Assembly (NCBI RefSeq): GCF_018760365.1
Contig: NZ_JAHIAB010000008.1
Span: 1-64,000 of the forward strand
Direction: 5' to 3'
Origin: Pseudooceanicola endophyticus
GTDB taxonomy: Bacteria > Pseudomonadota > Alphaproteobacteria > Rhodobacterales > Rhodobacteraceae
Length of the DNA: 64,000 nt
Positions within the stretch are counted from its first letter, which is position 1; every line of letters begins with the position of its first letter. Made by a program: the position numbers and the translations under genes. Of this stretch, positions 41,809 to 64,000 are shown piece by piece. The notes beneath the pieces were generated by a model. The model was not told the DNA's origin. It searched no databases and worked only from the letters and a program-made list of their open reading frames with translations.

Positions 41809-42552
41809 TCAGCGCCACCAGACCAGCCGCGCATCGAGCGCCGCGAGGAGACCGTACAGCACCAGACTGCCTGCCGAGGCCACCAGAACCGCCGCCCAGA
41901 CCGTTACGTAATCCACCACCGAGGTCGCCTGGTAGATCACCTGACCGATGCCGGAATAGGCGCCCAGCATCTCGGTCACGATGACGGTGATGGTGGCGCG
42001 CGACAGGCCCACCCGCATCCCCGTCATGATCGAGGGCATGGCAGCGGGCAGTTGCAGCTTCAGCAGCACCTTGAAGCGGCTGGCCCCGAAGCTGCGCAGC
42101 AGGTTCACCTGATCGCGAGGGCTGGATTGCAGGCCGGTCACGGCATTCAGCAGCACAGCGAAGCTGACCGCCAGCGCCGCCATGGCGATCTTGGATTCAT
42201 CGCCCATGCCGAACCAGATCAGCGCCAGCGGCACGAAGGCCGCCGTCGGCACCGAGGAGATCGCCACCGCCACCGGCATGACGAAATCGTAGATCCAGCC
42301 CGACAGCACCATGACCACCGCCAGACCCAGCCCGATGGCCGTGCCGATGACGAAACCGATCAGCGTGTTGCCAAGGGTGACGGTGATGTTGCTGCCGAGC
42401 TTGTCGCTCTGGTCCCAGATGCCGCCGAAGATCTCGACCGGGCCGGGCAGGATGTAGGTGGGCAGCTTGAACATCAGCACCGCCAGCTGCCAGACCACGA
42501 ACAGCAGCAGCACCGAGATCGCCGGCATCAGGGCCTTCTTGAAACGGGTCAT
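41809..42552 (-). CDS. ABC transporter permease (SsuC/TauC/ThiX family), copy 1
   Basis: 247 aa, six membrane segments. The ATPase-contact EAA loop is LLRSFGASRFKVLLKLQLPAAMP (split about residues 140-162). It pairs with the second permease, whose gene ends next to it. No ATPase gene adjoins: the candidate partners are the binding protein at 45.9 kb and the ATPase at 61.4 kb. An imported pyrimidine-, amide- or sulfonate-like compound is typical for this family. Confidence 0.9.
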   Translation of the reverse strand: MTRFKKALMPAISVLLLFVVWQLAVLMFKLPTYILPGPVEIFGGIWDQSDKLGSNITVTLGNTLIGFVIGTAIGLGLAVVMVLSGWIYDFVMPVAVAISSVPTAAFVPLALIWFGMGDESKIAMAALAVSFAVLLNAVTGLQSSPRDQVNLLRSFGASRFKVLLKLQLPAAMPSIMTGMRVGLSRATITVIVTEMLGAYSGIGQVIYQATSVVDYVTVWAAVLVASAGSLVLYGLLAALDARLVWWR

Positions 42553-42553
42553 G

Positions 42554-43315
42554 TCATTTCCACCAGATAAAGCGTTTCTCGATGCTGCTGAGCAGCACGA
42601 ACAGGATCTGCCCGATCACCCCCAGCAGCAGGATCAGCAGCCAGACGCGCTCGGTGTCCTCGAAGTAGAGGCTTTGCAGCAGCAGCGTGCCAAGGCCGGT
42701 GGTATCGCCGAACCATTCGCCGACCAGCGCGCCCACAAGGCTCAGCTGGATGCCGAGCTTGAGGCCCGTCATGATCGAGGACAGCGCCGTCGGCAGCGAC
42801 ACGGTGCGGAAGATCCGCATCTCGCTGGCGCCGAAGCTGCGCAGCAGGCGGATCAGCTCGGGGTCGGTACGATCCAGCCCCCGCGCGGTGTTCACCGCCA
42901 CCGGGAAGAAGGTAAGATAGAGCGCGATCACCACCTTGGAGGCCATGCCGTTGCCGAACCAGATCACCACGATGGCGCCGAAGGCGATGATCGGCACCGT
43001 CTGAAGCGCCACGAAGATCGGCAGCAGCATCTGCTCGGCCCGCTTGGAGCGCCAGAAGAGGATGCCGCTCAGGATGCCGATCAGCCCCCCGGCCAGGAAG
43101 CCGAAGAAGGTCTCGGTCAGGGTGTAGACGGTGCTGTGCAGCAGGTCGGTCCAGATCTTGGCGCCACTGGCCAGCACATCGGGCAGGGGCGGCAGGGTGC
43201 GCGCCGAGATGCCCAGCAGCGGCACCAGGATCAGCCACAGCAGGAGCACGATGGCCCCCACCGCCGGGGCGCTGCGCAGGACCCGCGCCGTGGGAGAGAG
43301 AGGTTTGTCGGTCAT
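42554..43315 (-). CDS. ABC transporter permease (SsuC/TauC/ThiX family), copy 2
   Basis: 253 aa, six membrane segments, EAA loop LLRSFGASEMRIFRTVSLPTA. The start is set at 43315, where MTDKPLSP begins; a longer open frame upstream runs through the regulatory gap and is not credible. It is co-directional with copy 1 and separated from it by 1 bp. The two probably form a heterodimeric channel. Divergent from the amidase gene across a gap that holds two TTTGCATACA elements. Confidence 0.9.
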   Translation of the reverse strand: MTDKPLSPTARVLRSAPAVGAIVLLLWLILVPLLGISARTLPPLPDVLASGAKIWTDLLHSTVYTLTETFFGFLAGGLIGILSGILFWRSKRAEQMLLPIFVALQTVPIIAFGAIVVIWFGNGMASKVVIALYLTFFPVAVNTARGLDRTDPELIRLLRSFGASEMRIFRTVSLPTALSSIMTGLKLGIQLSLVGALVGEWFGDTTGLGTLLLQSLYFEDTERVWLLILLLGVIGQILFVLLSSIEKRFIWWK

Positions 43316-43379
43316 ACGTCCATCTGTTCTGAGAGGCCGCCCTGCCCTGCGCCGGGGCTGCGAAGACAAAGGGCCATTG

Positions 43380-43390
43380 TTTGCATACAG
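43380..43390. promoter_or_regulatory. Candidate FCD-GntR operator A1 (TTTGCATACA)
   Basis: TTTGCATACAG in the 270-bp permease/amidase gap, 65 bp before the permease start. One of a set of TGCATAC/GTATGCA elements repeated in gaps of the 43-55 kb region. The rest of the gap has no gene. Confidence 0.6.
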
Positions 43391-43545
43391 AAAACGCCGT
43401 TCATTTCTCTTCCGCCAGAAATCTTGGTCAAACAGGCGCCCAAAATCCGTAATTTCGCGTGGGAGCCCGCTTGCATGACCGAAAATGCGGCGAATTTTCG
43501 CGAGGCCCTCCAAATTTTCGCCTTTCCGAATCCCCTGGTGATGAT

Positions 43546-43555
43546 TTTGCATACA
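43546..43555. promoter_or_regulatory. Candidate FCD-GntR operator A2 (TTTGCATACA)
   Basis: TTTGCATACA, identical over ten bases to element A1, 31 bp before the amidase start. Placement close to the start fits a repressor site. Confidence 0.6.
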
Positions 43556-43585
43556 CAGAAAGAGTGGGCGGCGTAGACCGATCCC

Positions 43586-44980
43586 ATGGACATGACTTCC
43601 CTGTACAGGCTTTCCCTGACCGAGACTTCCGAGGCGCTGGCCTCGGGGCGGCTGCGGGCGCGCGACCTGACCGAGGCCCTGCTGGAGCGGATCGCGCAAA
43701 CCGAGCCCCGCTTTCATGCCTTCGCCCAGCTGACCCCGGCCCGCGCCCGGGCCGAGGCCGACCAGGCCGATGCGCTGCTGCGCGCCGGCCACAGCCCCGG
43801 GCCGCTGTGCGGTGCGCCTGTGGCGGTGAAGGATGCGATCGACGCGCCGGATCAGCCGGCGCTCTTCGGCAACCCGGTGCTGCACCGGGGCCGCAGGGGC
43901 GGCCCTTCGGCGGTCGACAGCCGCCTGCGCGCCGCCGGCATGGTCCGCATGGGCGCCCTGACCCTGACCGAGGGCGTCTGGGTCCAGCACCATTCCAGCG
44001 TGACCGAGCCGGTGAACCCCCACGGCGCCGATCACTGGACCGGCAATTCCTCAAGCGGGTCGGGGGTGGCGCTGGCCGCAGGCATGGTGCCCGCCAGCGT
44101 TGGCACCGATACCGGCGGCTCGATCCGGCTGCCCTCGGGCTGTTGCGGGGTGACGGGGCTGAAGCCCAGCTGGGGGCGTATCGGGGTCTCGGGGGTGCAT
44201 CCGCTGGCGCCCTCCTTCGACACGGTGGGCCCGATGGCACGCACCGCCCGCGACGTGGCGCTGCTGATGGATGTGCTGGCGGGGCCCGATCCGCAGGATC
44301 CGACCAGCCTGCGCGCCCGCCCCCTGCCCTGCCGGGTCGAGGGACGACCAGACCTGCGCGGCTTGCGCCTGGGCCTGCCCGAGGCAGAGATCGCCCAAGC
44401 CGACGACAGCGTGCGCGCGGCGCTGGCCGGGGCGGCAGACACCTTTGCCCGCCTGGGCGCGACACTGGTGCCGCTGGCCCTGCCCGACCCCGAACCCGCC
44501 ATCGACGCCTGGAGCCTCCTGCTGGCCGCCGAGGCCGCCCGTATCCATGCCGAAAGCTACCCCGCCCACCGGGCGCTTTACGGCAGCGCCCTGAGTGCCC
44601 TGATCGAACGGGGTCTGCGGCATTCCGGCGCCCAGATCATCGACGCCATGGCGCTGCGGCGGAGCTACAGCGGCGCGCTGGTCGCGGCCTTCGAGGGGCT
44701 GGACGCCGTGCTGCTGCCGGCGCTGCCGGTGGGCGGCCCGTCGAAGGCCTACATGGCCGCCTTCCCGTCGGACCGTGCCTCCAGCCAGGTGATCGGGCGC
44801 TATACCGTGCCCTTCAACATGAGCGGTCTGCCGACCCTGACCCTGCCCTGCGGGCGCAGCGCCGAGGGCATCCCGATCGGAATGCAGCTTTGCGGCAACC
44901 GCCTGGCCGAACCGGTGCTGTGCCGGATCGGGGCGGCCTATCAGGACGCCACCGACTGGCACGGGGTCGCCCCCGACTAG
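43586..44980 (+). CDS. Amidase (amidase-signature family)
   Basis: 464 aa. The Ser-cisSer-Lys triad is visible: Lys in PVAVKDAID (about 79), cis-Ser in NSSSGSGVALAAG (about 153) and nucleophile Ser in DTGGSIRLPS (about 178). It should hydrolyse a carboxylic amide or a related C-N bond, releasing ammonia. It is divergent from the ABC permeases and lies inside the GntR-controlled region, so is likely a step in the same pathway. Its stop shares a CTAG with the stop of the convergent next gene. Confidence 0.92.
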   Translation: MDMTSLYRLSLTETSEALASGRLRARDLTEALLERIAQTEPRFHAFAQLTPARARAEADQADALLRAGHSPGPLCGAPVAVKDAIDAPDQPALFGNPVLHRGRRGGPSAVDSRLRAAGMVRMGALTLTEGVWVQHHSSVTEPVNPHGADHWTGNSSSGSGVALAAGMVPASVGTDTGGSIRLPSGCCGVTGLKPSWGRIGVSGVHPLAPSFDTVGPMARTARDVALLMDVLAGPDPQDPTSLRARPLPCRVEGRPDLRGLRLGLPEAEIAQADDSVRAALAGAADTFARLGATLVPLALPDPEPAIDAWSLLLAAEAARIHAESYPAHRALYGSALSALIERGLRHSGAQIIDAMALRRSYSGALVAAFEGLDAVLLPALPVGGPSKAYMAAFPSDRASSQVIGRYTVPFNMSGLPTLTLPCGRSAEGIPIGMQLCGNRLAEPVLCRIGAAYQDATDWHGVAPD

Positions 44981-45864
44981 ACCGGCCAGGCCGGCAGAGG
45001 GCCAAGGCCCCGCGCCGCCAAGGCCGCCCCCAGCAGATCGCAGTCGGCCCCCGGCGCCAGGGCGACCCGGTGATCATGGGCCAGATAATCCTGCACCTGA
45101 TCAACAAGGTAGGAAAGCGCCCGGTCGCGGGCGTCGGTTTCCAGCCCGTCGGGGGGCAGTTGCAGAAGGCCCCAACCCTCGGCCTCCATCCGGGCACACA
45201 GGGCCGCGTCGTTCATGCCGCCTTCGGGCAGAACCAGAACGCTGCGGCTGCGCGGCGTCCGGCTGTGGGCCTTGGGCGCCTCCTTGCGGGCGGGCGGCGG
45301 CGTCGGCTCGGCCTCGTGGCGAGGGCTGTTGAGGAAGGCGCGCACACGCTCCAGCTCCTGCGGCTGGTCATAGCCGACAAGCTCCGTCCCGACCCCGATC
45401 AGGCGCGGCTCTGCCAGGCCCCGGGCGGCGAAGACCTCCAGCAGGACCTCCATCCAGACACCGCGCCCGTAGACATGTTTCGAAGGATGATGCATCGGCC
45501 GCCCGCCCCATCCCTCTGCGAAAGAGGTTACGCCGACCCCGCTGGAGGGAGAGCCGTCGATGCCGAACAGCACCACGTCCTCGGCCTCGGCCGCCCCGGC
45601 GCCCTCCAGCAGGTCGGCCACGGTTTCGGCCAGGGCGCGGCAGTGGCGACGGTAGCCGGGGGTGTCGTATTGCGGGCGCGACTGCCACCAGCGGCCACAT
45701 CCCAGAAAGGTCATCTCCGGGCAGGGCATCTGGAGGATCCGGTAATCGGCGGCGCGCAGGATCTCGACCAGCGGGAACATCGCGCCGGCGCAGACCTCGA
45801 ATTCGGCGACCTTGGCATTCTGGTTGGCAAGGCAGTTGGACAGCACGGCCAGGCGTCTGGGCAT
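44977..45864 (-). CDS. DUF523/TudS-like predicted Fe-S or metal-binding protein
   Basis: 295 aa. Three motifs recall DUF523 and thiouracil desulfidase TudS: SNCLANQN near the N-terminus, MPCPE (about residue 49), and GIDGSPSSGV (about 112). TudS holds a [4Fe-4S] cluster on three cysteines, and the usual SPSCG is SPSSG here, so the third ligand is a serine. A long low-complexity linker follows, then a C-terminal part (LVLPEGGMNDAALCARME). The ATG at 45864 follows GGAG. It sits behind the NMT1-type binding-protein gene. Function uncertain; a sulphur-handling role is only a suggestion. Confidence 0.6.
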   Translation of the reverse strand: MPRRLAVLSNCLANQNAKVAEFEVCAGAMFPLVEILRAADYRILQMPCPEMTFLGCGRWWQSRPQYDTPGYRRHCRALAETVADLLEGAGAAEAEDVVLFGIDGSPSSGVGVTSFAEGWGGRPMHHPSKHVYGRGVWMEVLLEVFAARGLAEPRLIGVGTELVGYDQPQELERVRAFLNSPRHEAEPTPPPARKEAPKAHSRTPRSRSVLVLPEGGMNDAALCARMEAEGWGLLQLPPDGLETDARDRALSYLVDQVQDYLAHDHRVALAPGADCDLLGAALAARGLGPLPAWPV

Positions 45865-45890
45865 CTTGGAATCTCCGGGGGAAAACACGA

Positions 45891-45912: not shown

Positions 45913-45934
45913 GATCTGCGTCAGGCGGGATGGA

Positions 45935-46936
45935 TCACTTGTCCATCAGCTTGTCTTCGGCGGGCACCTTGTCCCAGAAGGAGGGGTCGAAGGCGTCCGA
46001 GATCTCGACCGGCTTGGTGATCGCCTCGTATTTCACCAGGTTCTTCTCGACGGCGGAAATGGCATCGAGGTTCAGGTAGCCCAGCCCCTTGGAGGCGCCG
46101 GTGGAGCCGGTCATCAGGTCCTTCACCTTGTCCAGCATCTTGGCCTGGTGATCGCGGTCCAGGCCGGTGCCGGCATCCATCACGATATCGACGGCCTCAT
46201 CGGGGTGCTGGAAGGCGTATTTCCAGCCGCGCAGGGTGGCGTTCAGGAAGGCCTGCACCACCTCGGGCTTCTCGGCGATCATCTTGTCGGAGGTGATGAT
46301 CGCATCCTGCTGAGAGGTCATGCCGCTGTCTTCGGGCGAAATCACCGTCAGATCGGTCAGGCCCTTTTCCAGCAGGGTGTTGTATTCATTGTAAAGCGTC
46401 GCGGTGGCCACATCGAAATCACCGTCGATGAAGGGCTGCAGCGTCACGGATTGCGAGATGATGTCGACATCCTTGCGATCGATCCCGTTGGCCGCCAGCA
46501 CCGAATACAGCACGTATTGCGGGCCGGTGAACCAGGTGGCGACCTTCTTGCCCTTGAAGTCGGCGGCGGTCTTGATGCCGGAATCGGGCTTGGTCACGTA
46601 GACATAGGGGGTGATCTGCTGATCCATGCCGATGGCCTTGATCGGCAGGCCCTTGGCGCGCGAGGCCAGCACGCCCTCGGTGCCCGAGGCGATGCCGAAG
46701 GTGTCGGCGCCCGAGGCGACCAGGGTTTCCACGTTGATGTTGGGGCCACCCGGCTGGATCGTCATGTCCAAGCCGGCGTCCGAATAGAAGCCCTTGGCCT
46801 TGGCGACGTAAACGCCGGCGAACTGGGCCTGGGTCAGCCATTTCAGACGCAGGGAAACGGCTTCGTTGGCATGCGCGGACGCCGCGCCGAACACGGAGAC
46901 AGCTGCGAGAAGCGAGGCGGTGAGGATCTTTCTCAT
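45935..46936 (-). CDS. ABC transporter substrate-binding protein (NMT1/THI5/SsuA family)
   Basis: 333 aa. A signal peptide (MRKILTASLLAAVSVFGAASAHA) is followed by an NMT1-like binding fold with LKWLTQAQFAGVYVAKAKGFY (split) and PGGPNINVETLVASGADTFG, closely resembling pyrimidine-precursor and related binding proteins. It likely serves the orphan permeases at 41.8-43.3 kb and the ATPase at 61.4 kb. A TTGCATAC element lies 9 bp upstream of the start. Confidence 0.9.
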   Translation of the reverse strand: MRKILTASLLAAVSVFGAASAHANEAVSLRLKWLTQAQFAGVYVAKAKGFYSDAGLDMTIQPGGPNINVETLVASGADTFGIASGTEGVLASRAKGLPIKAIGMDQQITPYVYVTKPDSGIKTAADFKGKKVATWFTGPQYVLYSVLAANGIDRKDVDIISQSVTLQPFIDGDFDVATATLYNEYNTLLEKGLTDLTVISPEDSGMTSQQDAIITSDKMIAEKPEVVQAFLNATLRGWKYAFQHPDEAVDIVMDAGTGLDRDHQAKMLDKVKDLMTGSTGASKGLGYLNLDAISAVEKNLVKYEAITKPVEISDAFDPSFWDKVPAEDKLMDK

Positions 46937-47194: not shown

Positions 47195-47896
47195 TCAGCC
47201 CAGAAGATGCGGGGGAATGGTGGCGATGAAATCCGACAGATGATCGCCCAGCAGGCGGACATGTTCGCTGGCCGCAACCATGGCGGCATCGGAATCCCCG
47301 GCCTCGATGGCGTCGATGATGCTCTGATGCTCGGTCAGGGTGGCGCGCATCTTGCCCGGCTGGAAGGTCACCTGGCGGCGATAGGGCGACAGGCGCAGCC
47401 GCAGCGCGATGGTCTGGTCGGCCAGGAAATGGGTATGCGCCGCGAGGTAGAGAAGATCATGGAACTCCTCGTTGATCTTGTAGAAGGCCTCGGGCTCGTT
47501 CTCTTCGAAGGCGCGCACCAGACGGGCCTGGACCTCGGACATGCGGTCCTTTTCCTCGCGGGAGGCGCGGCGCGCGGCCAGCCGGGCGCACAGCCCTTCC
47601 AGCGCCGCCATCAGGTCGAACATCTCGATCAGCATCGGGATCGACAGGGTGGCGACCATGGTGCCCTGACGGCCTCGGACCTCGACCAGGCCGGTGGCGA
47701 CCAGCGCCTTGATCGCTTCACGCACCGGGGTGCGCGAGACGTTGAACCGCTTGGCGATCTCGGTTTCATCCAGACGGTCGCCGGGCTTCAGCTCTCCGGC
47801 CACGATCATCCCTTCCAGATCCCGCCGCAGCTCCTCAGCCCGCGTCGGCTGGCGACGCCCCGTGGTTTCAGAGCGGGTCTCAAGTGTCTGGGTCAT
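47195..47896 (-). CDS. FCD-domain GntR-family regulator, probable master regulator of the 42-64 kb region
   Basis: 233 aa. The winged helix contains LDETEIAKRFNVSRTPVREAI (split) near residue 45. The C-terminal FCD domain carries the metal/ligand histidines in EEFHDLL, LTEHQSII and SEHVRLLG. FCD-GntR proteins usually repress catabolic genes and are released by a carboxylate or sugar-acid ligand. The gene lies at the centre of the divergent catabolic operons, and TGCATAC-type elements flank it. The start is taken at 47896 with only a weak ribosome site; ATGs upstream at 47929 or 47944 are possible. Confidence 0.9.
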   Translation of the reverse strand: MTQTLETRSETTGRRQPTRAEELRRDLEGMIVAGELKPGDRLDETEIAKRFNVSRTPVREAIKALVATGLVEVRGRQGTMVATLSIPMLIEMFDLMAALEGLCARLAARRASREEKDRMSEVQARLVRAFEENEPEAFYKINEEFHDLLYLAAHTHFLADQTIALRLRLSPYRRQVTFQPGKMRATLTEHQSIIDAIEAGDSDAAMVAASEHVRLLGDHLSDFIATIPPHLLG

Positions 47897-47960
47897 CGGG
47901 ATACTTTCTTTGTTGGTCAGGGCAATCATGGCATGCGGGGCCATTTATACCAAATCGGCG

Positions 47961-47996: not shown

Positions 47997-48791
47997 TCAG
48001 CGCAAAACCAGCGCGGCAAGTTCAGCCTTCAGGAACGGCAACAGCGCGTCGGGGGCCTCGATCTGGGGGAAATGCCCCTGACCATAGACGGTTTGGGGCA
48101 CGTCACGCAGGCATTCCAGCGGATCGCGGCGATGGGCCGCATCCACGACGCCCGAGTTCAGCAGCCGCAGCGGAACGGCAAGGGCCGGCAAGCGATCAGC
48201 AATGCGCCAGGCGAACATGGCGTCGCGCAGCGCCAGAAGATCCTGCGGGTCGGCCTGAAGAATATCGCGGGTCATCGCGGCGCGCAGCGCGTCCGAGGTA
48301 TCGGGTGCGGTGATCGCGTCGATCATGGCGCGGGTCTGGCCCGGCAGATCGGCGCCGAAAACCTTGCGGCGAAAGGCGATCTCCTCGGGCGGGGCCCCGC
48401 CGTAGAAGACCTTGTCGGCCAGCGTATCCAGCCCCAGGATCCCCGCCACCCGCTCCGGCGCAGCCAGGGCGGCCTCGACCGCGACGGGACCGCCCATGGA
48501 ATGGCCCAGCAGCAGGACATCCCGCAGATCCGCCTGCACCAGGGCGGCGGCGATGCCCCGGCCCAGGGCCGGCAGATCGACCGGACCGTCCAGCGGCAGC
48601 ACCGGGCCGCCGGGCATGTCCACAAGCCACAGCACATAGTCCCCGGCAAGACCGGGAAGCAGCGCATCCCATTGCCCCGCCTCCCCGCCCCAGCCGTGGA
48701 TCAGCACCAGGGGCCGCCCCTGCCCGCCCGCGCAGGTCAGCCGGAACCGACCCACGGGCTGGACAATATCGAGGCGGTCCCCGGCCTTCAT
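47997..48791 (-). CDS. Alpha/beta hydrolase, copy 1
   Basis: 264 aa. Oxyanion strand HGWGGEAGQW (about 33), nucleophile elbow GHSMGG (about 96), and catalytic His in GQGHFPQ near residue 243. It resembles BioH-like carboxylesterases. The ATG overlaps the flavin monooxygenase stop (ATGA), so it is translationally coupled to it and probably hydrolyses the product of that enzyme or a related ester, amide or enol-lactone. Confidence 0.88.
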   Translation of the reverse strand: MKAGDRLDIVQPVGRFRLTCAGGQGRPLVLIHGWGGEAGQWDALLPGLAGDYVLWLVDMPGGPVLPLDGPVDLPALGRGIAAALVQADLRDVLLLGHSMGGPVAVEAALAAPERVAGILGLDTLADKVFYGGAPPEEIAFRRKVFGADLPGQTRAMIDAITAPDTSDALRAAMTRDILQADPQDLLALRDAMFAWRIADRLPALAVPLRLLNSGVVDAAHRRDPLECLRDVPQTVYGQGHFPQIEAPDALLPFLKAELAALVLR

Positions 48792-52658: not shown

Positions 52659-52685
52659 GCGGCCTCCGTCGGGATCGGGAAAAGG

Positions 52686-52709
52686 GCCGGGCCCCCGAAA
52701 GGGCCCGGC
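52686..52709 (-). other. Intercistronic hairpin after the family-1 binding-protein gene
   Basis: Perfect 9-bp stem (52686-52694 with 52701-52709), 6-base loop, followed on the minus strand by CCTTTTCC. Placed between the binding-protein and permease genes; a partial terminator or stabiliser would favour the binding protein. Confidence 0.65.
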
Positions 52710-52720
52710 AGTCGGGGAGG

Positions 52721-54016: not shown

Positions 54017-54063
54017 GAGAGGGCTCCTGTCGGGTTCGGGTTCTTGTTGTTTTCAGACGTATT

Positions 54064-55131: not shown

Positions 55132-55210
55132 GACGATCCTTTCCGGAAGGCGGATATTCGGGGAGTACACCGGCACTGAAGCCGCGCAATTGGCATCCGT
55201 AAAGTCATTT

Positions 55211-55398: not shown

Positions 55399-55414
55399 CG
55401 TATGCAGATACAAG
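55399..55414. promoter_or_regulatory. Candidate FCD-GntR operator D2 (GTATGCAGATAC)
   Basis: Contains GTATGCA and the 11-base block TATGCAGATAC seen also at 47113-47123. Lies about 30 bp before the SDR start, where a repressor would block the plus-strand operon. Confidence 0.6.
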
Positions 55415-56224: not shown

Positions 56225-57354
56225 TGGCCGACCTCTCTGTCCGGAACCGGTATTTCGACGATCTCTTCTCCACGCCGGACCTGGCGTGGATGGGGCAGAA
56301 CACCAACCACATCCCCGCCCACCCCGCCGTGACCGCCGCCATGGTGGCCTCGATCGAGGCGGGAGAGTTCAACGCCTATGCGCCCCCCCTGGGGTTCGAG
56401 GCCCTGCGCGCCGCCATCGTCGAGGATTTCGGCGTGCCCGGCCTTGAGGCGCTGGTGACCGAGGGCGGCGTGAACGCGCTGGCGCTGATCACCCGGGCGC
56501 GTGCCAAGCCCGGCACCACGCTGGTCACCACCGACCCCACCTGGAAATGGCCCTGCCAGTTCGCCGAGCAGCAGGGCGCCGAGGTGATCCAGACGCCGAT
56601 CTACGGTCCCGAGACCGGCTACAAACTGACGCCCGACCTGCTGCGTGCCCATATCGACGAACGTTGCGCGATCCTCTACGTGGTCGATCCCAATAACCCG
56701 CTGGGCGTGACCTACTCGGCCGAGGAAATCACCGAGTTCGCCGCCATCGCGAAGGAGAACGGCGCGCTTCTGGTGCATGACTGCACCTATCGCGACTTCG
56801 CCGAGGGCCACACCCCCGCCGTCGCCGTGGATGCCGAGAACTGCATTTGCTCGCTCTCCTTCTCCAAGTGGCTGGGCCTTGCGGGGATGCGCATCGGCGG
56901 GCTGGTCGGCCGCCCCGAGCTGATCGCCGAGCTGGCCGCGGTGTCGACCTCGGTGCTGGGGGGCAACGTGGTGGCGCAGCGCGGCGCCATGGCCGGCCTC
57001 AAGGTCAAGGCCGAATGGATGGCCGAGGTCCGCCGCATCGACTTCGCCAACAAGGTCAAGATCAGGGCGGCAGCCGAAGCCATCGGCATGACCGTGCCGG
57101 TCTGGCCCTCGCATGGCAACTTCCTGGTGATCGAGACCGGTGCCACCGGCGTCACGCCGGAGGCCATCGTCGAGGCGGCGCGCCTGGATGGCGTGATGAT
57201 CCGTCAGGGTGCCTACCATACGGCCGCGTTCGGCGACCGCTTCATCAAGGTGTCGACCACGGTCCCCGAGGCCTGGGCCGACAAGCTTGCCACCAACCTC
57301 GCGGGGTATGTCGAGACGGCCAGGGGCCTGACCGACGTCCCCGCCCTGTTCTGA
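56224..57354 (+). CDS. PLP-dependent aminotransferase, class I/II
   Basis: 376 aa fold-type I aminotransferase. EGGVNALALI is the PLP phosphate-side loop, DPNNPLGVTYS holds the conserved Asn-Pro, HDCTYRDF the Asp/Tyr pair, and SLSFSKWLGLAGMRIGG the Schiff-base lysine (about 221). C-terminal FIKVSTTVPE replaces the usual FxRIS/FxRLS, so the substrate-carboxylate arginine is not in its usual place. It may act on an amino compound released by the pathway. Overlaps the SDR by one base. Confidence 0.88.
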   Translation: MADLSVRNRYFDDLFSTPDLAWMGQNTNHIPAHPAVTAAMVASIEAGEFNAYAPPLGFEALRAAIVEDFGVPGLEALVTEGGVNALALITRARAKPGTTLVTTDPTWKWPCQFAEQQGAEVIQTPIYGPETGYKLTPDLLRAHIDERCAILYVVDPNNPLGVTYSAEEITEFAAIAKENGALLVHDCTYRDFAEGHTPAVAVDAENCICSLSFSKWLGLAGMRIGGLVGRPELIAELAAVSTSVLGGNVVAQRGAMAGLKVKAEWMAEVRRIDFANKVKIRAAAEAIGMTVPVWPSHGNFLVIETGATGVTPEAIVEAARLDGVMIRQGAYHTAAFGDRFIKVSTTVPEAWADKLATNLAGYVETARGLTDVPALF

Positions 57355-57364
57355 GAGGGTGATC

Positions 57365-58243
57365 ATGTACGCGACCGCACAGGACGGCACGAAGATCTAC
57401 TACGAAACCGCCGGAGAGACCGGGACCCCGATCCTGTTCATCCATGAATTCGGCGGCAATTACGACGCGTGGGAGCCTCAGATGAGCTACTTCGCGCGCC
57501 GTCACCGCTGCATCACCTATGCGGCGCGGGGCTATGCGCCCTCCGACATTCCGACCGATCTGGAGCAGTATTCCCAGGCCATCGCGGTCGAGGATGCGGT
57601 GGCGGTGCTGGATGATCTGGGCATCGAGAAGGCCCATATCGTCGGCCTGTCGATGGGCGGCTTTGCCGTGGTGCATTTCGGCCTGACCCATCCCGACCGC
57701 GCCCTGTCGCTGACCATCGCCGGCGCGGGCTATGGCTGCGAGAAGGAGACGGAAGAGTACTTCAAGGGCGTCTCCCTGACCGTGGCCGACAAGTTCGAGG
57801 AAGATCCCGTGGCCTTCGCCGAGGTCTACGGCCGGGGCGCCAGCCGCGTCCAGTTCGAGAACAAGGACCCGCGCGAACATCTGAAGTTCGTCGCCCGCCT
57901 GGCCCGTCACGACAAGGTCGGCGCCGCCAACACCATGCGCGGCGTGCAGGCGCGCCGTCCCTCGTTCTGGGATCTCGAAGAGGGGCTGAAGGCCTGCACC
58001 CTGCCGACGCTGATCATGGTCGGCGACGAGGATGACCACTGCCTGCAGCCGGGCATCTACCTCAAGAAGATGATGCCCGCCTCGGGGCTGCTGATCCTGC
58101 CCAAGACCGGCCATACGCTGAACCTTGAGGAACCCGCGCTGTTCAACCTCCACCTGGCCGAGTTCCTGGCCCAGGCCGAGGCCGGTGCCTGGAAGCAGCG
58201 CGATCCGCGCGCCGATCCCGGCCAGGTCATGCGGACGGACTGA
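57365..58243 (+). CDS. Alpha/beta hydrolase, copy 2
   Basis: 292 aa. Oxyanion strand HEFGGNYDAW (about 29), nucleophile elbow GLSMGG (about 97), acid in VGDEDDHC (about 220) and His in KTGHTLNLEEP (about 246), all intact. A 3-oxoadipate enol-lactonase/haloperoxidase-like member. ATG at 57365 preferred to a GTG two codons earlier. Probably hydrolyses an ester, lactone or C-C bond in the same pathway. Confidence 0.88.
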   Translation: MYATAQDGTKIYYETAGETGTPILFIHEFGGNYDAWEPQMSYFARRHRCITYAARGYAPSDIPTDLEQYSQAIAVEDAVAVLDDLGIEKAHIVGLSMGGFAVVHFGLTHPDRALSLTIAGAGYGCEKETEEYFKGVSLTVADKFEEDPVAFAEVYGRGASRVQFENKDPREHLKFVARLARHDKVGAANTMRGVQARRPSFWDLEEGLKACTLPTLIMVGDEDDHCLQPGIYLKKMMPASGLLILPKTGHTLNLEEPALFNLHLAEFLAQAEAGAWKQRDPRADPGQVMRTD

Positions 58244-58246: not shown

Positions 58247-59500
58247 ATGACGGATGCCCCCCTGATCAACCCCGACCGGCTGTGGAAACGGCTGATGGAC
58301 ATGGCCCGGATCGGTGCCATCCCCGGCGATGGCGTGAACCGCCAGTCGCTCTCCGCCGAGGACCGCGCCGCCATGGCCTGCCTCATCGGCTGGGGCCGCG
58401 CCATCGGCCTGACGCCCGCCTTCGACCGGGCCGGGAACCTGTTCCTGACGATGGCGGGGACGACCGGGGGGGCGCCGGTGCTGATCGGCTCTCACCTTGA
58501 CAGCCAGCCGACGGGGGGGCGTTTCGACGGCGTCTACGGCGTTCTGGCCGCCTTCGAGGCGCTGGAAACCCTGCATGAGGCCGGGATCACCCCACCCCGC
58601 CCGATCACCCTGGTCGCCTGGATGAACGAGGAAGGCAGCCGCTTTGCCCCCGGCATGATGGGATCGGAGGTTTTCGCGGGCGTGCGGACCCTAGACCAGA
58701 TCCGCGCGGTCACCGATGCGGAGGGCATCAGCGTCGGGGCCGAGCTGGACGTGCTGGCCGAAAGCTTTGCCGGCATTGCGGTGCAGGAGCCGGGCTTTGC
58801 CCTTCATGCCTATCTAGAGCCGCATATCGAACAGGCCGACCACCTTGAGGCGACGGCGAATGTGATCGGCGCGGTGACCGGCATCCAGGGCAAGAAGACC
58901 TTCGAGGTCACGATCCTCGGACAGGAGGCCCATGCGGGCACCGAACCCATGGCGCGGCGCCGCGACGCGGTGCAGGCCTTCGCCCGGGTGGCGCTGGCCA
59001 TGCAGGAGGCCGCGCTGGCCGCCGGCGAGGACATCCGCTTTACCATCGGCCGGGTCGAGGTGCTGCCCAATGCGCCCTCCGTCGTGCCCGCCCGGGTGCG
59101 CTTCCGCATCGACCTGCGCCATCCCGAAAACGCCGTTCTGGACGCCACCGCCACGGCGATTGAGGCCGCCTGCGACCAGGCCGCCCCCTGCGAGGTGCAG
59201 ATCCGCCCCATGGTGGATGCCCCCGCCAACGCCTTTGCCGCCCCCCTGCGCGCCGCGATCCGCGACAGCGCCAAAAGCCACGGCTTTCCCGCCACCGACC
59301 TGCTGTCGGCGGCGGGTCACGATGCCCGCCACATGGCGCCCCTCGCCCCCTCGGCGATGATCTTCGTGCCCTGTCGCGGCGGGCTCAGCCATCACCCCGA
59401 CGAATGGGCCGATCCCGCCCATCTGGCCGCCGGCGCCCAGGTTCTGCTGGATGTCTGCCTGCGCGCCGCTGCCACCCCCGACCAAGGAGACCTCTCATGA
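58247..59500 (+). CDS. M20-family Zn-dependent amidohydrolase (hydantoinase/carbamoylase family)
   Basis: 417 aa. Metal ligands are in GSHLDSQPTGGRFDG (His/Asp, about 83-95), WMNEEGSRFAP (Glu-Glu, about 126), LEPHIEQ (His) and RGGLSHHPDEW (terminal His). This is the family of N-carbamoyl-L-amino acid hydrolase, beta-ureidopropionase and allantoate amidohydrolase, which cleave linear ureides to release CO2 and ammonia. The stop overlaps the cupin gene (ATGA). Strong hint that the pathway yields a ureide or N-acyl intermediate. Confidence 0.92.
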   Translation: MTDAPLINPDRLWKRLMDMARIGAIPGDGVNRQSLSAEDRAAMACLIGWGRAIGLTPAFDRAGNLFLTMAGTTGGAPVLIGSHLDSQPTGGRFDGVYGVLAAFEALETLHEAGITPPRPITLVAWMNEEGSRFAPGMMGSEVFAGVRTLDQIRAVTDAEGISVGAELDVLAESFAGIAVQEPGFALHAYLEPHIEQADHLEATANVIGAVTGIQGKKTFEVTILGQEAHAGTEPMARRRDAVQAFARVALAMQEAALAAGEDIRFTIGRVEVLPNAPSVVPARVRFRIDLRHPENAVLDATATAIEAACDQAAPCEVQIRPMVDAPANAFAAPLRAAIRDSAKSHGFPATDLLSAAGHDARHMAPLAPSAMIFVPCRGGLSHHPDEWADPAHLAAGAQVLLDVCLRAAATPDQGDLS

Positions 59501-60423
59501 CGATGAACGACATGGCGGAAATGCCGGTCCAGCTGCCGACCGATCCGAAGACCGGCGCCGAGGCGCGGGGCCGCTACTTCAACTCCGGCAATGCCTTCAA
59601 CATCAAGCTGCCCCCGGTGCCGCCGCGCATCCTGCGCGAGGAGCCCGCGCAGGCGCTGGCCAAATCCGCGACCGGCTGGGTGCTGTGCGATCTTTCGGCG
59701 GAACTCGACTGTCCCTTCCCCGCCACCACGCCGCTGATGCTGGCGCGCTATGCGACCGTGCTGGCGGGCGAGAGCCTGGACACCACCTTCACTTGCACCG
59801 CCTCGATCTGGTACGTGATCGAGGGGACGGCCACGATCCATGTGGGCGAGGAGACCGCGATCCTGGGCAAGGGCGATGTCTTCCTGCTGCCCGGCGGCGT
59901 CGAAAGCCGCATCGAGGCCACGGCAACCTCCGTCTTCTGGGCCGTCGGCAACGATCCCCAGCTGGCGTTCGAGAAGGCCGCCCCGATCACCGGCCCCGAA
60001 GCCGCCACCGCCTTCGTCCACTACCCCGCCGCCGAAATCACCCACCAGCTCGACGTGGTCTACAACCGCGATGCGAACGAGACGACCTCGGGCCACGCGC
60101 TGATCTTCTCGGCCGAGCAGACCGAGGCCTCGCGCAATATCGCCCCCACCCTGACGCTCTCTCTCAACACGCTGAAGCCGCACAGCTTCCAGCCGCCGCA
60201 CCGGCACAACTCGGCGGCGCTGACGCTGGCGGTGGCGGGCGATCCTGCCTATTCCATGGTCGATGACCTGAAATGCGACTGGTCTCCCTGGGCGACGCTC
60301 TTGACCCCGCCGACCGCCAAGCACAGCCATCACAATGACGGCGACACCAGGGCCGAGTTCCTGATCGTGCAGGACGGGGGCTTCTACTACCACGGTCGCA
60401 CCATGGGGTTCGAATTCTTCTGA
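59497..60423 (+). CDS. Cupin-domain protein
   Basis: 308 aa, two cupin-like barrels. The first has IWYVIEGTATIHVGEE and GDVFLLPGG; the second has PPHRHNSAALTLAVAG and KHSHHNDGDTRAEFLIVQD, a His-rich metal site. It recalls gentisate-dioxygenase-like cupins but is shorter. It could be a ring or C-C cleaving dioxygenase or an isomerase; I cannot decide. ATG at 59497 overlaps the M20 gene and the stop overlaps the nucleoside hydrolase start by one base. Confidence 0.8.
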   Translation: MTMNDMAEMPVQLPTDPKTGAEARGRYFNSGNAFNIKLPPVPPRILREEPAQALAKSATGWVLCDLSAELDCPFPATTPLMLARYATVLAGESLDTTFTCTASIWYVIEGTATIHVGEETAILGKGDVFLLPGGVESRIEATATSVFWAVGNDPQLAFEKAAPITGPEAATAFVHYPAAEITHQLDVVYNRDANETTSGHALIFSAEQTEASRNIAPTLTLSLNTLKPHSFQPPHRHNSAALTLAVAGDPAYSMVDDLKCDWSPWATLLTPPTAKHSHHNDGDTRAEFLIVQDGGFYYHGRTMGFEFF

Positions 60424-61364
60424 TGCGCCTGATCATCGACACCGATACCGCCGGGGATGACTGCTTTTCGCTGCTGCTGGCGATGAAGACCCCCGGCGTG
60501 ACGCTGGAGGCGGTCACGATCTGCAACGGCAATGTCGATTTCGACCAGCAGGCGGAAAATGCCCTGGCCACGATCGAGGCCGCCGGCCTGTCCGGGCAGG
60601 TGCCGGTCTACCTTGGCGCCCGCAAACCGCTGCTGGCCGAATGGGAGCCCGCCCAGATGCACGGCGCCGACGGCATGAGCGGCGCGAACCTGCCCCGCGC
60701 CCGCCAGCGCCCCGAGGATCAGCACGCGGTCGATGCGCTGATCGAACGCATCATGGCCGCCCCGGGCGAGATCGAGATGATCGCCCAGGCGCCGCTGACC
60801 AACCTGGCGCTTGCCGTCACGAAAGAGCCGCGCATCGCCAAGGCGCTGAAACATCTGTGGATCATGGGCGGCACCGACAACTCGGTCGGCAATGTCACCC
60901 CCTGCGCCGAGTTCAACTTCTACGTCGATCCCGAGGCCGCCGAAATCGTCTTCCGCGCCGGGTTCGACATCACCGTCTCGACCTGGACGCTGACCATGCG
61001 CGCCTCGACCTTCGATGCGGACCAGCTGGCGCGCCTCGATGCGCTGGAAACGCCGCTGTCGGAATTCTACCGCAAGGTCTCGGACACGCCGCGCAAGGTG
61101 GCGCTGGAACGCTACGGCCGGGTGATCTGCACCCATCCCGACACGCTGACCTGCGCCTGTGCCATCGACCCCTCGATCATCCGCGCCGCCCGCCCCGCCG
61201 TGGTCCGGATCGAGACCGCCGGCAAGATCACCCGCGGGTTTTCGGCCATGCATCCGGCCAAGCTTGGCGCGCGCTGGCCCGAGTACCACGACAACGCCCG
61301 CATCATCGAAGACGCCGACAACACCGCCTTCTTCGCCATGCTGGAACGGGCGTTCTCCGCATGA
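60423..61364 (+). CDS. Nucleoside hydrolase (IunH family)
   Basis: 313 aa. The Ca-binding aspartate cluster at the N-terminus reads DTDTAGDD (about 6-13): all Asp residues are kept, but the usual Pro-Gly is Thr-Ala. TNLALAV, MGG and the later N-FY-D stretch (AEFNFYVDPEAAEIV) are family-typical, and the C-terminal Asp lies in THPDTLTCACAIDP. It should cleave an N-glycosidic bond to base and ribose. Its place in the operon suggests the imported compound, or an intermediate, is a nucleoside-like N-glycoside. Confidence 0.9.
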   Translation: MRLIIDTDTAGDDCFSLLLAMKTPGVTLEAVTICNGNVDFDQQAENALATIEAAGLSGQVPVYLGARKPLLAEWEPAQMHGADGMSGANLPRARQRPEDQHAVDALIERIMAAPGEIEMIAQAPLTNLALAVTKEPRIAKALKHLWIMGGTDNSVGNVTPCAEFNFYVDPEAAEIVFRAGFDITVSTWTLTMRASTFDADQLARLDALETPLSEFYRKVSDTPRKVALERYGRVICTHPDTLTCACAIDPSIIRAARPAVVRIETAGKITRGFSAMHPAKLGARWPEYHDNARIIEDADNTAFFAMLERAFSA

Positions 61365-61397: not shown

Positions 61398-62192
61398 ATG
61401 TCCGCTGACCAGAAGCCGATCCTCGATCTGCGCAACCTCTCCAAGACCTTCGGCGACATGAAGGCCCTGACCGATGTCAACCTCGCGGTGCAGCCGGGTG
61501 AATTCGTTACCGTCGTCGGCCCCTCGGGCTGCGGCAAGTCCACGCTGTTCAACATCGTGGCGGGGCTGGAAGAGCCCGACACCGGCGCCACCGTGCGCTT
61601 CGAGGACCGTTCGGTCATGGCAAAGGACCTGCTGGGGCGGGTGTCGTTCATGCCGCAGCGCGACCTGCTGCTGGCCTGGCGCAACGTGATCGACAACGCC
61701 ATCCTGCCGCTGGAAATGGAGGGCGCCAACCGCGCCGAGGCCCGCAAGGAGGCGGCGCGGATGCTGCCGGAATTCGGCCTCTCGGGCTTTGACGGCAAGT
61801 ACCCGCATGAACTTTCGGGCGGCATGCGCCAGCGCGTCGCCCTGATGCGCACCTTCATGTTCAAGCGCGACCTGATGCTGCTGGACGAACCCTTCGGGGC
61901 GCTGGACGCGCTGACGCGCACGATGATGCAGCGCTGGCTGCTGGATGTCTGGCAGAAGCACAAGCGCACCGTCCTTTTCATCACCCACGACGTGGACGAG
62001 GCGATCTTCCTGGGCGACCGGGTGCTGGTGATGTCGGCCCGCCCCGGCACCATCAAGCTGGAACGCCGGATCGAGCTGGAGCGCCCGCGCGGCGGCAACG
62101 TCGTCACCGCGCCCGAGTTCATCGCGCTGAAACGCGAGCTGCTGGAAGCCATCGAAGAGGAAAGCATGAAGACCTTCGGCCCCGTCGGCTGA
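61398..62192 (+). CDS. ABC transporter ATP-binding protein (SsuB/TauB/ThiZ type)
   Basis: 264 aa. Walker A GPSGCGKST (about 42), Q-loop MPQRDLLLAWRNV, signature LSGGMRQRV (about 137), Walker B LMLLDEPFGALD, H-loop FITHDVDEA. The LLAWRNV and EAI motifs are typical of nitrate/sulfonate/pyrimidine-precursor importers. It is the natural energy subunit for the two orphan permeases at 41.8-43.3 kb and the NMT1-type binding protein at 45.9 kb, although 15-20 kb away. GGAG precedes the ATG. Confidence 0.93.
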   Translation: MSADQKPILDLRNLSKTFGDMKALTDVNLAVQPGEFVTVVGPSGCGKSTLFNIVAGLEEPDTGATVRFEDRSVMAKDLLGRVSFMPQRDLLLAWRNVIDNAILPLEMEGANRAEARKEAARMLPEFGLSGFDGKYPHELSGGMRQRVALMRTFMFKRDLMLLDEPFGALDALTRTMMQRWLLDVWQKHKRTVLFITHDVDEAIFLGDRVLVMSARPGTIKLERRIELERPRGGNVVTAPEFIALKRELLEAIEEESMKTFGPVG

Positions 62193-62279
62193 GGGTCCGG
62201 GCGCTCTGGACAATCCCGGCGCGGTGGTTTCCTTTCGCCCCGGAGGGCCCCGGCCCTTCGCGAAGGAGAGGAGACCGCC

Positions 62280-63725
62280 ATGCAGATTTCGATGATCATC
62301 AACGGGGCCGATGCCCAGGCCTCTGACGGGCGCTGCTATGACCGGCTGGACCCGGTGACCGGCGAGGTCGCCACCCGGGCGCCCGCCGCCACCCCCGAGG
62401 ACGTGGCCACCGTCGCCCGCGCCGCCGGGGCCGCCTTCCCCGGCTGGGCCGCCACCGCCCCCGCCGAACGGCGCGCGCTGCTGCTGAAGGCCGCCGATGC
62501 GCTGGAGGCGATGACGCCCGAGATCGTCGCCACCGCCATCACCGAGACCGGCGCCACCGCCCCCTGGACCGGCTTCAACTGCATGCTCTCTGCCGGCATC
62601 CTGCGCGAGGCCGCCAGCATGACCACCCAGATCACCGGAGAGGTGATCCCGTCGAACAAGCCCGGCACCCTGGCGATGGCGCAGCGCAAGCCGCTGGGCG
62701 TATGCCTGGGCATCGCCCCCTGGAACGCGCCGGTGATCCTGGGCACCCGCGCCGTCGCCATGGCCATCGCCTGCGGCAACACCGCGATCCTGAAGGCCTC
62801 AGAGCTGTGCCCGGCCACCCATCTGGCCATCGGCGAAGCCTTCCGCCGCGCCGGCTTCCCGCCCGGGGTGATGAACGTGATCACCAATGCCCCCGAGGAT
62901 GCCGCGCAGATCGTCGGTGCCCTGATCGCCGCCCCCGAAGTGCGCCATGTGAACTTTACCGGCTCGACCGCCGTGGGCCGGATCATCGCCCGCGCCGCCG
63001 CCGATCAGCTGAAGCCGGTGCTGCTGGAACTGGGCGGCAAGGCGCCGCTGGTGATCCTGGACGATGCCGATGTCGAGGCCGCAGTGAACGGCGCGGCCTT
63101 CGGCGCCTTCATGAACCAGGGCCAGATCTGCATGTCCACCGAACGGATCATCGTCCACGAGGGGATCGCCGACCGCTTCATCCCCGCGCTGGCCGCCAAG
63201 GTCGCGGGCCTGCCGGCGGGCGATCCCCGGGACCAGGTGGTGCTGGGCGCTCTGGTCACCCCGGAGGCGGCGCAGAAGATGGACCGGCTGATCGCCGACG
63301 CCACCGCCAAGGGGGCTACGCTGCTGGCCGGCGGCACCCGCGACGGTGCCGTGGTCGCGGCGACGCTGCTGGATCACGTGACCCCCGAGATGACGATCTA
63401 TGCCGAGGAGAGCTTTGGCCCGGTGAAGCCGATCATCCGGGTGCGCGACGACGAAGAGGCGATCCGGGTCGCGAACGACACCGCCTATGGCCTCTCGGCG
63501 GCGGTCTACGGATCGGACATCACCCGCGCCCTCTCGGTCGCCGACCGGATCGAAAGCGGGATCTGCCACATCAACGGCCCCACGGTCGCCGACGAGGCGC
63601 AGATGCCCTTTGGCGGCGTGAAGGATTCGGGCTATGGCCGCTTCGGTGGCAAGGCCGCCATCGACGCCTTCACCTCGACCCGCTGGGTCACCATCGAGGA
63701 TCCGCATCAGCACTTCCCGTTCTGA
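62280..63725 (+). CDS. Aldehyde dehydrogenase (vanillin/salicylaldehyde dehydrogenase-like)
   Basis: 481 aa. Catalytic Glu in LELGGKAPLVILDD (about 247), catalytic Cys in NQGQICMSTERI (about 284), cofactor region APWNAPVIL and FTGST. The NQGQICMSTERI sequence resembles vanillin and salicylaldehyde dehydrogenases. It oxidises an aldehyde to acid with NAD(P)+. GGAGAGGAG precedes the ATG. 87 bp after the ATPase gene, possibly in the same transcript; the next gene encodes a ThDP enzyme of decarboxylase type, whose aldehyde product it could take. Confidence 0.93.
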   Translation: MQISMIINGADAQASDGRCYDRLDPVTGEVATRAPAATPEDVATVARAAGAAFPGWAATAPAERRALLLKAADALEAMTPEIVATAITETGATAPWTGFNCMLSAGILREAASMTTQITGEVIPSNKPGTLAMAQRKPLGVCLGIAPWNAPVILGTRAVAMAIACGNTAILKASELCPATHLAIGEAFRRAGFPPGVMNVITNAPEDAAQIVGALIAAPEVRHVNFTGSTAVGRIIARAAADQLKPVLLELGGKAPLVILDDADVEAAVNGAAFGAFMNQGQICMSTERIIVHEGIADRFIPALAAKVAGLPAGDPRDQVVLGALVTPEAAQKMDRLIADATAKGATLLAGGTRDGAVVAATLLDHVTPEMTIYAEESFGPVKPIIRVRDDEEAIRVANDTAYGLSAAVYGSDITRALSVADRIESGICHINGPTVADEAQMPFGGVKDSGYGRFGGKAAIDAFTSTRWVTIEDPHQHFPF

Positions 63726-63787
63726 ACCGCCCTTTTGCCAGGCGTTGACAGCGCCCCCCGATTGATCGCAGCCTGACCTCCGGAGGA

Positions 63788-63832
63788 TCCCGCCCGCGCG
63801 GGACAGGAGGACGGGGCGCCAGGGCGCGCCCC
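63788..63832 (+). other. Tandem hairpins between aldehyde dehydrogenase and ThDP-enzyme genes
   Basis: Two stems: 6 bp (63788-63793 with 63798-63803) and 7 bp (63813-63819 with 63826-63832) in the 135-bp gap. No T-run follows. Could be an attenuator or an mRNA-processing site. Confidence 0.4.
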
Positions 63833-63860
63833 GCATGGCACGGCAGAGGAGGCCCGCCAG

Positions 63861-64000
63861 ATGCGCGATCAGGACAATCCCCCCGGGCTGAGCGCCGGGG
63901 GGGCCATCTTCGGTACGCTGAAGGCCCTCGGCGTGGATTATGTCTTTGCCAATTCCGGCACCGACTTCCCGCCGGTGATCGAGGGTCTGGCCACTGCCCG
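63861..64000 (+). CDS. ThDP-dependent enzyme, N-terminal part (cut by window edge)
   Basis: 46 codons visible. After a short leader, GGAIFGTLKALGVDYVFANSGTDFPPVIEGLA matches the first strand-helix of acetolactate-synthase/benzoylformate-decarboxylase-like enzymes. The Glu that activates ThDP is normally a few residues after the FxNxG turn; here GTDFPP occupies that place. GAGGAGG precedes the ATG. Its role with the aldehyde dehydrogenase, e.g. decarboxylating a 2-keto acid, is inferred. Confidence 0.8.
   Translation, partial: MRDQDNPPGLSAGGAIFGTLKALGVDYVFANSGTDFPPVIEGLATA

Follow-up and report, generated by a model that had tools for sequence, protein, structure and literature searches.

Analysis of a 64,000-nucleotide stretch of Pseudooceanicola endophyticus DNA (contig NZ_JAHIAB010000008.1, positions 1 to 64,000 of the forward strand; hereafter the window) revealed that 41809–62192 is, by sequence comparison, a single conserved locus. 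It is probably a catabolic island that breaks down a nucleobase, for which a pyrimidine, modified or not, is the likeliest candidate, and its nucleoside front end would be optional; we put the probability of this reading at slightly over one half (about 0.55). The minus strand carried a run of genes encoding a CUT1/UgpC-type importer (50872–55176), a class II aldolase, an NtaA-type flavin monooxygenase (LLM), an alpha/beta hydrolase (ABH1) and a GntR regulator. This run was divergent from a plus-strand run encoding a short-chain dehydrogenase/reductase (SDR), an aminotransferase (AT), a second alpha/beta hydrolase (ABH2), an M20 carbamoylase (M20), a cupin, a nucleoside hydrolase (NH) and an ATPase (ATPB). 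The left part of the locus held an NMT1-type importer binding protein (SBP_B), a TudS-related gene, a plus-strand amidase gene and two permease genes. The SDR, AT, ABH2 and M20 genes are referred to below as the tetrad, and compared loci are given L-numbers. An earlier sequence-only reading of 41809–64000 had noted an overlapping plus-strand run and an ATGA overlap between the class II aldolase and LLM genes; both were found, with intergene gaps of −4 to +4 bases from SDR to NH and the overlap at 50065–50068. All of the gene classes it had listed were recovered by profile search except a thiamine diphosphate (ThDP) enzyme, of which the first 46 residues gave no profile match.

The evidence for a single locus came from its conservation. 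A cupin scan, with one genome per species, yielded 49 loci, and in 38 of these the tetrad and cupin were present in the same order (SDR-AT-ABH2-M20-cupin). The order was counted by script in 37 and the remaining locus, L044, was added by inspection, as it has a second M20 gene but its M20 at 8673–9872 is in place. The class II aldolase gene accompanied the tetrad in all 38. The presence of the amidase gene, the TudS-like gene and the SBP_B/permB pair varied among the loci. The co-occurrence check that the sequence-only reading had proposed was passed for the core, in its fixed order and in the joint presence of NH and the CUT1 importer described below. The carriers were rhizobia, Methylobacterium, Xanthobacter, Variovorax and roseobacters, and the closest relatives of the core proteins, in a tree of these, were those of Poseidonocella and Mangrovicoccus. 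The cluster is rare within the sampled genomes: a search of the order (244 genomes, E ≤ 1e-20) recovered the cupin from two genomes and one of the phylum (398 genomes, E ≤ 1e-30) from five, and the AT was found in 4 of 398 and 9 of 385 genomes (E ≤ 1e-70), this genome included each time. These counts are lower bounds, with few candidates scored per genome.

The NH gene and the four CUT1 importer genes behaved as a unit. Among the 38 tetrad loci, 24 had both, 14 had neither and none had one alone. Of the carriers, Neorhizobium galegae has NH and Xanthobacter lacks it. As many of these loci are near copies, a tree of the four core proteins was built, with the window and 37 loci as its 38 rows; L022 was omitted, being absent from one or more of the protein sets. 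On this tree the joint NH/CUT1 label needed at least four changes, and L017, L018 and L038, which lack the unit, were nested among carriers. L018 retained two NH gene ends and pieces of the CUT1 ATPase and a permease, L038 a piece of the CUT1 ATPase and L017 a 27-residue permease tail, scars from which we infer loss rather than gain in these three. The cluster NHs compared were 55–87% identical and conserved the DxDxxxDD motif as DTDTAGDD, whereas identity to the remaining four NHs that this genome encodes was 32–36%; by these comparisons the cluster NH is its own subfamily. The uptake of a nucleoside-like compound and the glycoside cleavage inferred by the sequence-only reading stood, but in refined form: NH and this importer would be an optional front end, and the core also occurs without both. 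The second, NMT1/SsuA-type importer comprised SBP_B, permeases at 41809–43315 and a likely ATPase on the plus strand. The nearest solved structures to the L014 counterpart of SBP_B (44% identical) were 4nmy and 3ix1, the latter an FAMP (pyrimidine) binding protein (ThiY).

The same core was found beside other nucleoside-acting genes. On the plasmids of two related strains, Rhizobium sp. CB3060 and CB3171, a BMP importer, AT, SDR, ABH2 and M20 were encoded together with a nucleoside phosphorylase, deoC and a transhydrogenase, with deoA further on; the phosphorylase gene lay 10 bases behind M20, and a phosphopentomutase and an ABC importer were encoded upstream. The CB3060 phosphorylase belonged to the uridine phosphorylase family (TIGR01718, 217 bits, below the cut-off of 280), and the phosphorylases of this strain were pyrimidine types by family and annotation. 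L134 encoded an NH of the cluster subfamily (55% identical), the tetrad, an energy-coupling factor (ECF) transporter (S, T and two ATPase genes) and a PhyH-family dioxygenase, with a PfkB kinase nearby; the ABC importer beside this kinase was taken for a ribose type. The ECF genes (L134, 13016–15951; S component PF12822, CbiQ-type T component, two ATPases) are a candidate nucleoside importer in their own right. These unlike nucleoside partners beside the same core suggest that the substrate is a nucleobase, probably a pyrimidine. Wherever a sugar-cleaving enzyme was attached it was always of a nucleoside-acting family, in CB3060 of pyrimidine families. We read the core as a putative lower pathway that is joined, from locus to locus, to differing importers, cleaving enzymes and upper-pathway enzymes. 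The proposal that a nucleoside-like compound is taken up, its N-glycosidic bond cleaved and the N-containing base broken down through an M20 ureide step is supported by this co-occurrence and by the CB3060/CB3171 and L134 partners.

Other arrangements varied more widely. L114 carried NH with the CUT1 binding protein and permeases in a different order, and L113 the tetrad, LLM, a flavin reductase and the aldolase. In L120 and L049, LLM, cupin, amidase, SDR and aldolase were encoded, and AT, ABH2 and M20 were not found in the stretch. The L053 cupin lay among hydantoinase A and B genes, with a class III aminotransferase and a BKACE gene. In L118, where ABH2 was not detected, AT, SDR and M20 were encoded beside an isochorismatase and a hydrolase of the polysaccharide-deacetylase family. 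The cupin itself was not detected in the fetched stretches of tetrad loci L096, L097, L098, L113, L117 and L131–L134.

LLM was present in 30 of the 38 fetched tetrad stretches, and a 67–68% identical orthologue lay at or just past the stretch end in L041, L042, L043, L045 and L047. The remaining three loci (two Variovorax, one Caballeronia) encoded a TauD/TfdA-family dioxygenase in its place. Neither Variovorax genome had an LLM match (E ≤ 1e-60) and Caballeronia had only paralogues of at most 48% identity. The nearest solved relative of this dioxygenase was RdpA, a phenoxypropionate dioxygenase, and a 62% identical dioxygenase was encoded within 3 kb of the cupin in the marine locus L056, whose SDR and ABH2 genes lay some 6 kb beyond. 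In L134 the PhyH-family dioxygenase was present and LLM was not found in the fetched stretch. TfdA/RdpA-like and PhyH dioxygenases are families that hydroxylate aliphatic carbons. The alternation between LLM and the TfdA-like enzyme suggests that LLM oxidises or modifies a side group of the substrate. RutA-like ring opening, a role in line with the oxidative opening inferred by the sequence-only reading, was rejected as the leading one for LLM on account of this replacement and a score of 63.9 bits against the RutA model (cut-off 498.3). A flavin reductase was encoded beside LLM in rhizobial loci (PF01613 in L020); none was matched within 82 kb from the window start. Two separate observations concern these families. 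On a Variovorax PBL-E5 plasmid (L093, 13944–15767) a cupin of 38% identity and a TauD/TfdA dioxygenase were encoded side by side within a region for acyl-CoA catabolism, a further instance of these two being paired, and on a Solirubrobacterales contig (L049, 1267–2457) a PrnB-family protein (PF08933, 532 bits) adjoined an NtaA-type monooxygenase.

The SDR (residues counted from TTG 55430, where its open reading frame begins) retained the cofactor motif and Tyr154 but had Ser158 at the lysine position of YxxxK; K116, Y154 and S158 were invariant in 16 rows, and position 158 was T or A in CB3060 and Methylobacterium aquaticum. Classical SDRs have lysine at the position of Ser158 and asparagine at that of Lys116. 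In its AlphaFold2 (AF2) model (mean predicted local distance difference test score, pLDDT, 82) the nearest solved fold was AerF, at rank 1, with YwfH/BacG at rank 12. AerF and YwfH/BacG are ene-reductases that reduce conjugated C=C bonds by hydride addition, and the model gives a lead that the SDR may be an ene-reductase suited to reduction of a pyrimidine ring. ABH2 had an intact serine-hydrolase set. M20, which matched the full carbamoylase profile above its cut-off, is assigned by family as a putative carbamoylase-type enzyme. The cupin AF2 model showed a bicupin fold, nearest to 3bu7 and 2phd (template-modelling score, TM, about 0.72), with an HxH...H pattern; H235, H237, H276 and H278 were invariant in 28 rows.

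In the proposed route, the CUT1 importer would bring in an N-riboside from which NH would free the base, while the NMT1/ThiY-like importer would take up free base. LLM (or the TfdA-like dioxygenase), the cupin and the class II aldolase would remove or oxidise a substituent, and the amidase and TudS-like protein may be accessories for certain variants. The SDR would then reduce a ring double bond, ABH2 open the reduced ring, M20 remove the carbamoyl moiety with release of NH3 and CO2, and AT convert the beta-amino acid to a semialdehyde. This order of reduction, ring hydrolysis, decarbamoylation and transamination is our inference. A more specific version, which we hold tentatively and consider rather doubtful, is that the locus encodes a complete nucleobase pathway not described before, in which an SDR-fold ene-reductase, the serine hydrolase ABH2, M20 and a fold-type I AT replace the FMN/Fe-S dehydrogenase and zinc dihydropyrimidinase and an oxygenase-cupin-aldolase upper part strips a substituent off a modified pyrimidine, such as a nucleoside derived from tRNA. 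The tRNA wobble uridines cmo5U and cmnm5s2U were not kept as a specific substrate claim. Mimosine, vitamin B6, trigonelline/homarine, riboflavin and cytokinins were likewise dropped as substrates; for all of these candidates the known gene sets fit badly or no test was at hand. In agreement with the sequence-only reading, which knew of no described pathway with this set of genes, no description of it was found in the open-licence papers searched.

Several observations weigh against a pyrimidine island. PreA or RutA was above cut-off in 12 of 16 cluster genomes (PreA in 9, RutA in 5) and TIGR02033 (D-hydantoinase, a stand-in for dihydropyrimidinase) in 14 of 16; this genome carries PreA and a hydantoinase 3 kb apart on another contig. 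In Limoniibacter (L030), PreA, RutA and TIGR02033 were all below cut-off. As a known pyrimidine route exists in those 12 genomes, the substrate is perhaps a modified base, and plain uracil or thymine is not required. The pyrimidine phosphorylases were found in two related strains only, and at least six tetrad contexts (Tistrella, M. aquaticum, L117, L131, L132 and L133) had no detected nucleoside-cleaving gene. Outside the 38 loci the tie between NH and the importer was looser: L134 had NH without CUT1, L114 had NH without a detected CUT1 ATPase in the stretch, and the rearranged L015, in which the cluster breaks off upstream of the cupin gene, had NH without tetrad or CUT1 in the stretch. In sequence, the NH also stood nearer to a Sulfolobus enzyme that was deposited under the name purine nucleosidase. 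The active-site loop of the SDR model (146–153) was below pLDDT 50, and the SDR-fold matches differed little in score, which makes the first rank of AerF no more than suggestive; the L118 SDR was just 30% identical. In marine genomes SDR, ABH2 and cupin occurred without AT, which was absent (E ≤ 1e-30) from each of ten whole genomes with a tetrad-less cupin locus, and these three proteins may therefore have a wider role. One such marine cupin-SDR-ABH2 set (L061) had an aromatic hydroxylase nearby, and a 40% ABH2 relative was encoded among aromatic-type genes (VOC-family and fumarylacetoacetate hydrolase-family) in Sphingobium CFD-2.

The last two observations, together with a cupin fold nearest to gentisate and salicylate dioxygenases and its conserved histidine cluster, fit an N-glycoside of a hydroxyaromatic or pyridine-type acid that is not a nucleobase. 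The cupin would then cleave the ring, ABH2 would act as a C–C hydrolase of the cleavage product, and M20 and AT would handle an amide-linked amino acid. We consider this unlikely, as pyrimidine phosphorylases accompany the core in CB3060 and CB3171 and M20 is carbamoylase-type; moreover, the stretches of several tetrad loci in which no cupin was detected indicate that ring cleavage by the cupin is not obligatory unless the gene lies elsewhere. A purine or purine-derived ureide would also engage NH, M20, cupin and AT, with NH freeing the purine and the others acting as in allantoate and ureidoglycine metabolism. The best subfamily match of M20 was the allantoate amidohydrolase model, though its 407.8 bits fell below the cut-off of 452, the cupin model also matched ureidoglycine aminohydrolase (TM 0.55/0.65), and NH was nearest to IunH-2. 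No uricase, allantoinase or OHCU-type gene was present among the profiled genes at 38043–63998, however, and the pyrimidine types of the CB3060 phosphorylases also speak against a purine, which appears quite improbable.

That unrelated operons are adjacent by chance and were joined by the sequence-only reading is very improbable and largely refuted for the core, where gene order was fixed in 38 of 38 loci and NH and CUT1 were jointly present or absent. Chance adjacency does agree with the variable amidase, TudS-like and SBP_B/permB genes, and it holds true at the right edge. There, the sequence-only reading had included an aldehyde dehydrogenase and the ThDP gene as pathway members. Searches of all 38 tetrad loci, each with up to 10 kb on either side, matched neither of them (E ≤ 1e-8), so that edge was placed wrongly. 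The sole match to the aldehyde dehydrogenase near other clusters was a 31% relative in L061, a locus without the tetrad. The ThDP gene (63861–65582) lies almost entirely beyond the window; its first 46 residues were profile-searched without a match, and its putative name rests on the sequence-only reading and on sequence appearance. Three open reading frames (ORFs) at 65557–68643 resemble a TRAP transporter in appearance. The aldehyde dehydrogenase, putative ThDP enzyme and TRAP-transporter-like ORFs (window 62280–64000; L006 1861–6643) appear to form a separate unit adjoining the cluster. The genes that we retain in the proposed nucleobase island are listed in Table 1.

Table 1. Genes of the conserved locus, with window coordinates, strand and supporting matches
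Gene and assignment	Coordinates	Strand	Evidence
permB1, NMT1/SsuA-type ABC importer permease	41809..42552	-	PF00528; relatives 55% in L120, 41-49% in core loci
permB2, second NMT1/SsuA-type permease	42554..43315	-	PF00528; ATG at 43315, in frame of a longer ORF
Amidase-signature amidase, putative accessory	43586..44980	+	PF01425, 293 bits (cut-off 27)
TudS-related protein, putative accessory	44977..45888	-	NF045597, 109.9 bits (below cut-off 130); third cluster cysteine is Ser
SBP_B, NMT1/THI5-type binding protein	45935..46936	-	PF09084, 188 bits
GntR/FCD regulator	47195..47944	-	PF00392, PF07729; relative of at least 45% in 33/38 tetrad loci
ABH1, alpha/beta hydrolase	47997..48791	-	PF12697; 62% in L018, 37-42% in 20 rhizobial loci
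LLM, NtaA/DmoA-family FMN monooxygenase	48788..50068	-	TIGR03860, 510.1 bits (cut-off 279.7); ATG 50068, ORF to 50119
Class II aldolase/adducin-family enzyme (PRK07044)	50065..50838	-	NF005451, 340 bits (cut-off 207); in 38/38 tetrad loci
permA2, CUT1 permease	50872..51723	-	PF00528; start 51723
permA1, CUT1 permease	51723..52658	-	PF00528
SBP_A, CUT1 binding protein	52721..54016	-	PF01547, PF13416
UgpC/MalK-type ATPase, CUT1 importer	54064..55176	-	NF008653, 488 bits (cut-off 432)
SDR, PRK06125 family, altered active site; proposed ene-reductase	55442..56224	+	NF004779, 376 bits (cut-off 261)
AT, PLP (pyridoxal phosphate) aminotransferase (PRK06225 family)	56224..57354	+	NF004870, 499 bits (cut-off 351)
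ABH2, alpha/beta hydrolase; proposed ring-opening hydrolase	57359..58243	+	PF00561; GLSMGG, GDEDDHC, GHT conserved
M20 hydantoinase/carbamoylase-family amidohydrolase	58247..59500	+	TIGR01879, 375.4 bits (cut-off 204)
Bicupin, gentisate-dioxygenase fold	59497..60423	+	His cluster in C-terminal barrel; AF2 model nearest 3bu7, 2phd
NH, nucleoside hydrolase, cluster-specific subfamily	60423..61364	+	PF01156, 270.2 bits (cut-off 34.2)
ATPB, likely ATPase of NMT1-type importer	61398..62192	+	PF00005; relative of at least 55% in 37/38 tetrad loci

Among the accessory genes, relatives of the amidase (44–48% identity) were found beside the cluster in L038, L136, L120, L049 and Tistrella, and the TudS-related gene recurred in L019, L021, L024 and L026 (Neorhizobium clade). 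The usual TudS motif is SPSC; the TudS-related proteins had SPSS in five of five sequences. In TudS, three cysteines ligate a [4Fe-4S] cluster (PMC10611767). Since the third of these ligands is absent here, we set aside any firm claim that the protein acts as a TudS on thiolated bases. The TudS-like proteins around 12351–13247 in L019, L021, L024 and L026, which kept the CPE motif and the serines, possibly have a different activity.

A GntR operator ATACAAGACTTTTGTAT at 55408 was considered and rejected; the 82 kb scanned contained it a single time, and no other locus showed the complete repeat ahead of its SDR gene. Boxes resembling TGTATGCATACA (at least 10 of 12 positions; defined post hoc and not used as evidence) were present at 43378, upstream of permB2, and at 55209, in the divergent intergene; other loci carried them weakly, with best scores averaging 9.05 where shuffles gave 7.64. 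They are possible candidate GntR operators. Promoter and terminator scans gave counts about equal to shuffles, or lower. A chance estimate was likewise not used as evidence, since its contexts were grouped by eye and some of them have the NH subfamily in common.

Nucleosides and bases are a common nutrient, yet to our knowledge few routes for pyrimidine opening have been described. If correct, the proposal would add a further pyrimidine route built from other enzyme families and would explain many gene labels that are given by family only. It would also show that an importer and a nucleoside-cleaving enzyme can be added or dropped as a unit.

The proposed chemistry (ring reduction, hydrolysis, M20-type decarbamoylation, transamination) resembles that of reductive pyrimidine catabolism (PydA/PreTA, dihydropyrimidinase, beta-ureidopropionase), but the locus has an SDR and a serine-type alpha/beta hydrolase as would-be stand-ins, plus an oxygenase, a cupin and an aldolase. 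PreA had no match (E ≤ 1e-60) on the window contig, which is 239,319 bases of a 5.2 Mb genome in 46 contigs, and none among the profiled locus genes; no dihydropyrimidinase from this contig was among the TIGR02033 matches listed, and none was among the profiled locus genes. AerF and the YwfH/BacG SDRs, which are among the solved structures closest in fold to the SDR model, shared about 30% identity with it and act on a substrate class unlike that proposed here. The cupin shared with gentisate and salicylate 1,2-dioxygenases the bicupin fold (TM about 0.72) and HxH...H pattern, but its histidine cluster lies in the C-terminal barrel and it scored 51.5 bits against the gentisate 1,2-dioxygenase model TIGR02272 (cut-off 442.1). 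Like the locus, the Rut pathway for uracil combines a flavin monooxygenase of the LLM type with an alpha/beta hydrolase and an amidase that cleaves a ureide, whereas the locus LLM is of the NtaA/DmoA rather than the RutA type and is replaced by the TfdA-like enzyme in three Burkholderiales loci. The nucleoside hydrolases RihA/B/C and UriH share the IU_nuc_hydro domain and DxDxxxDD motif with the locus NH, which differs from them in forming its own subfamily and in being tied, in most carrier loci, to a CUT1 sugar-type importer.

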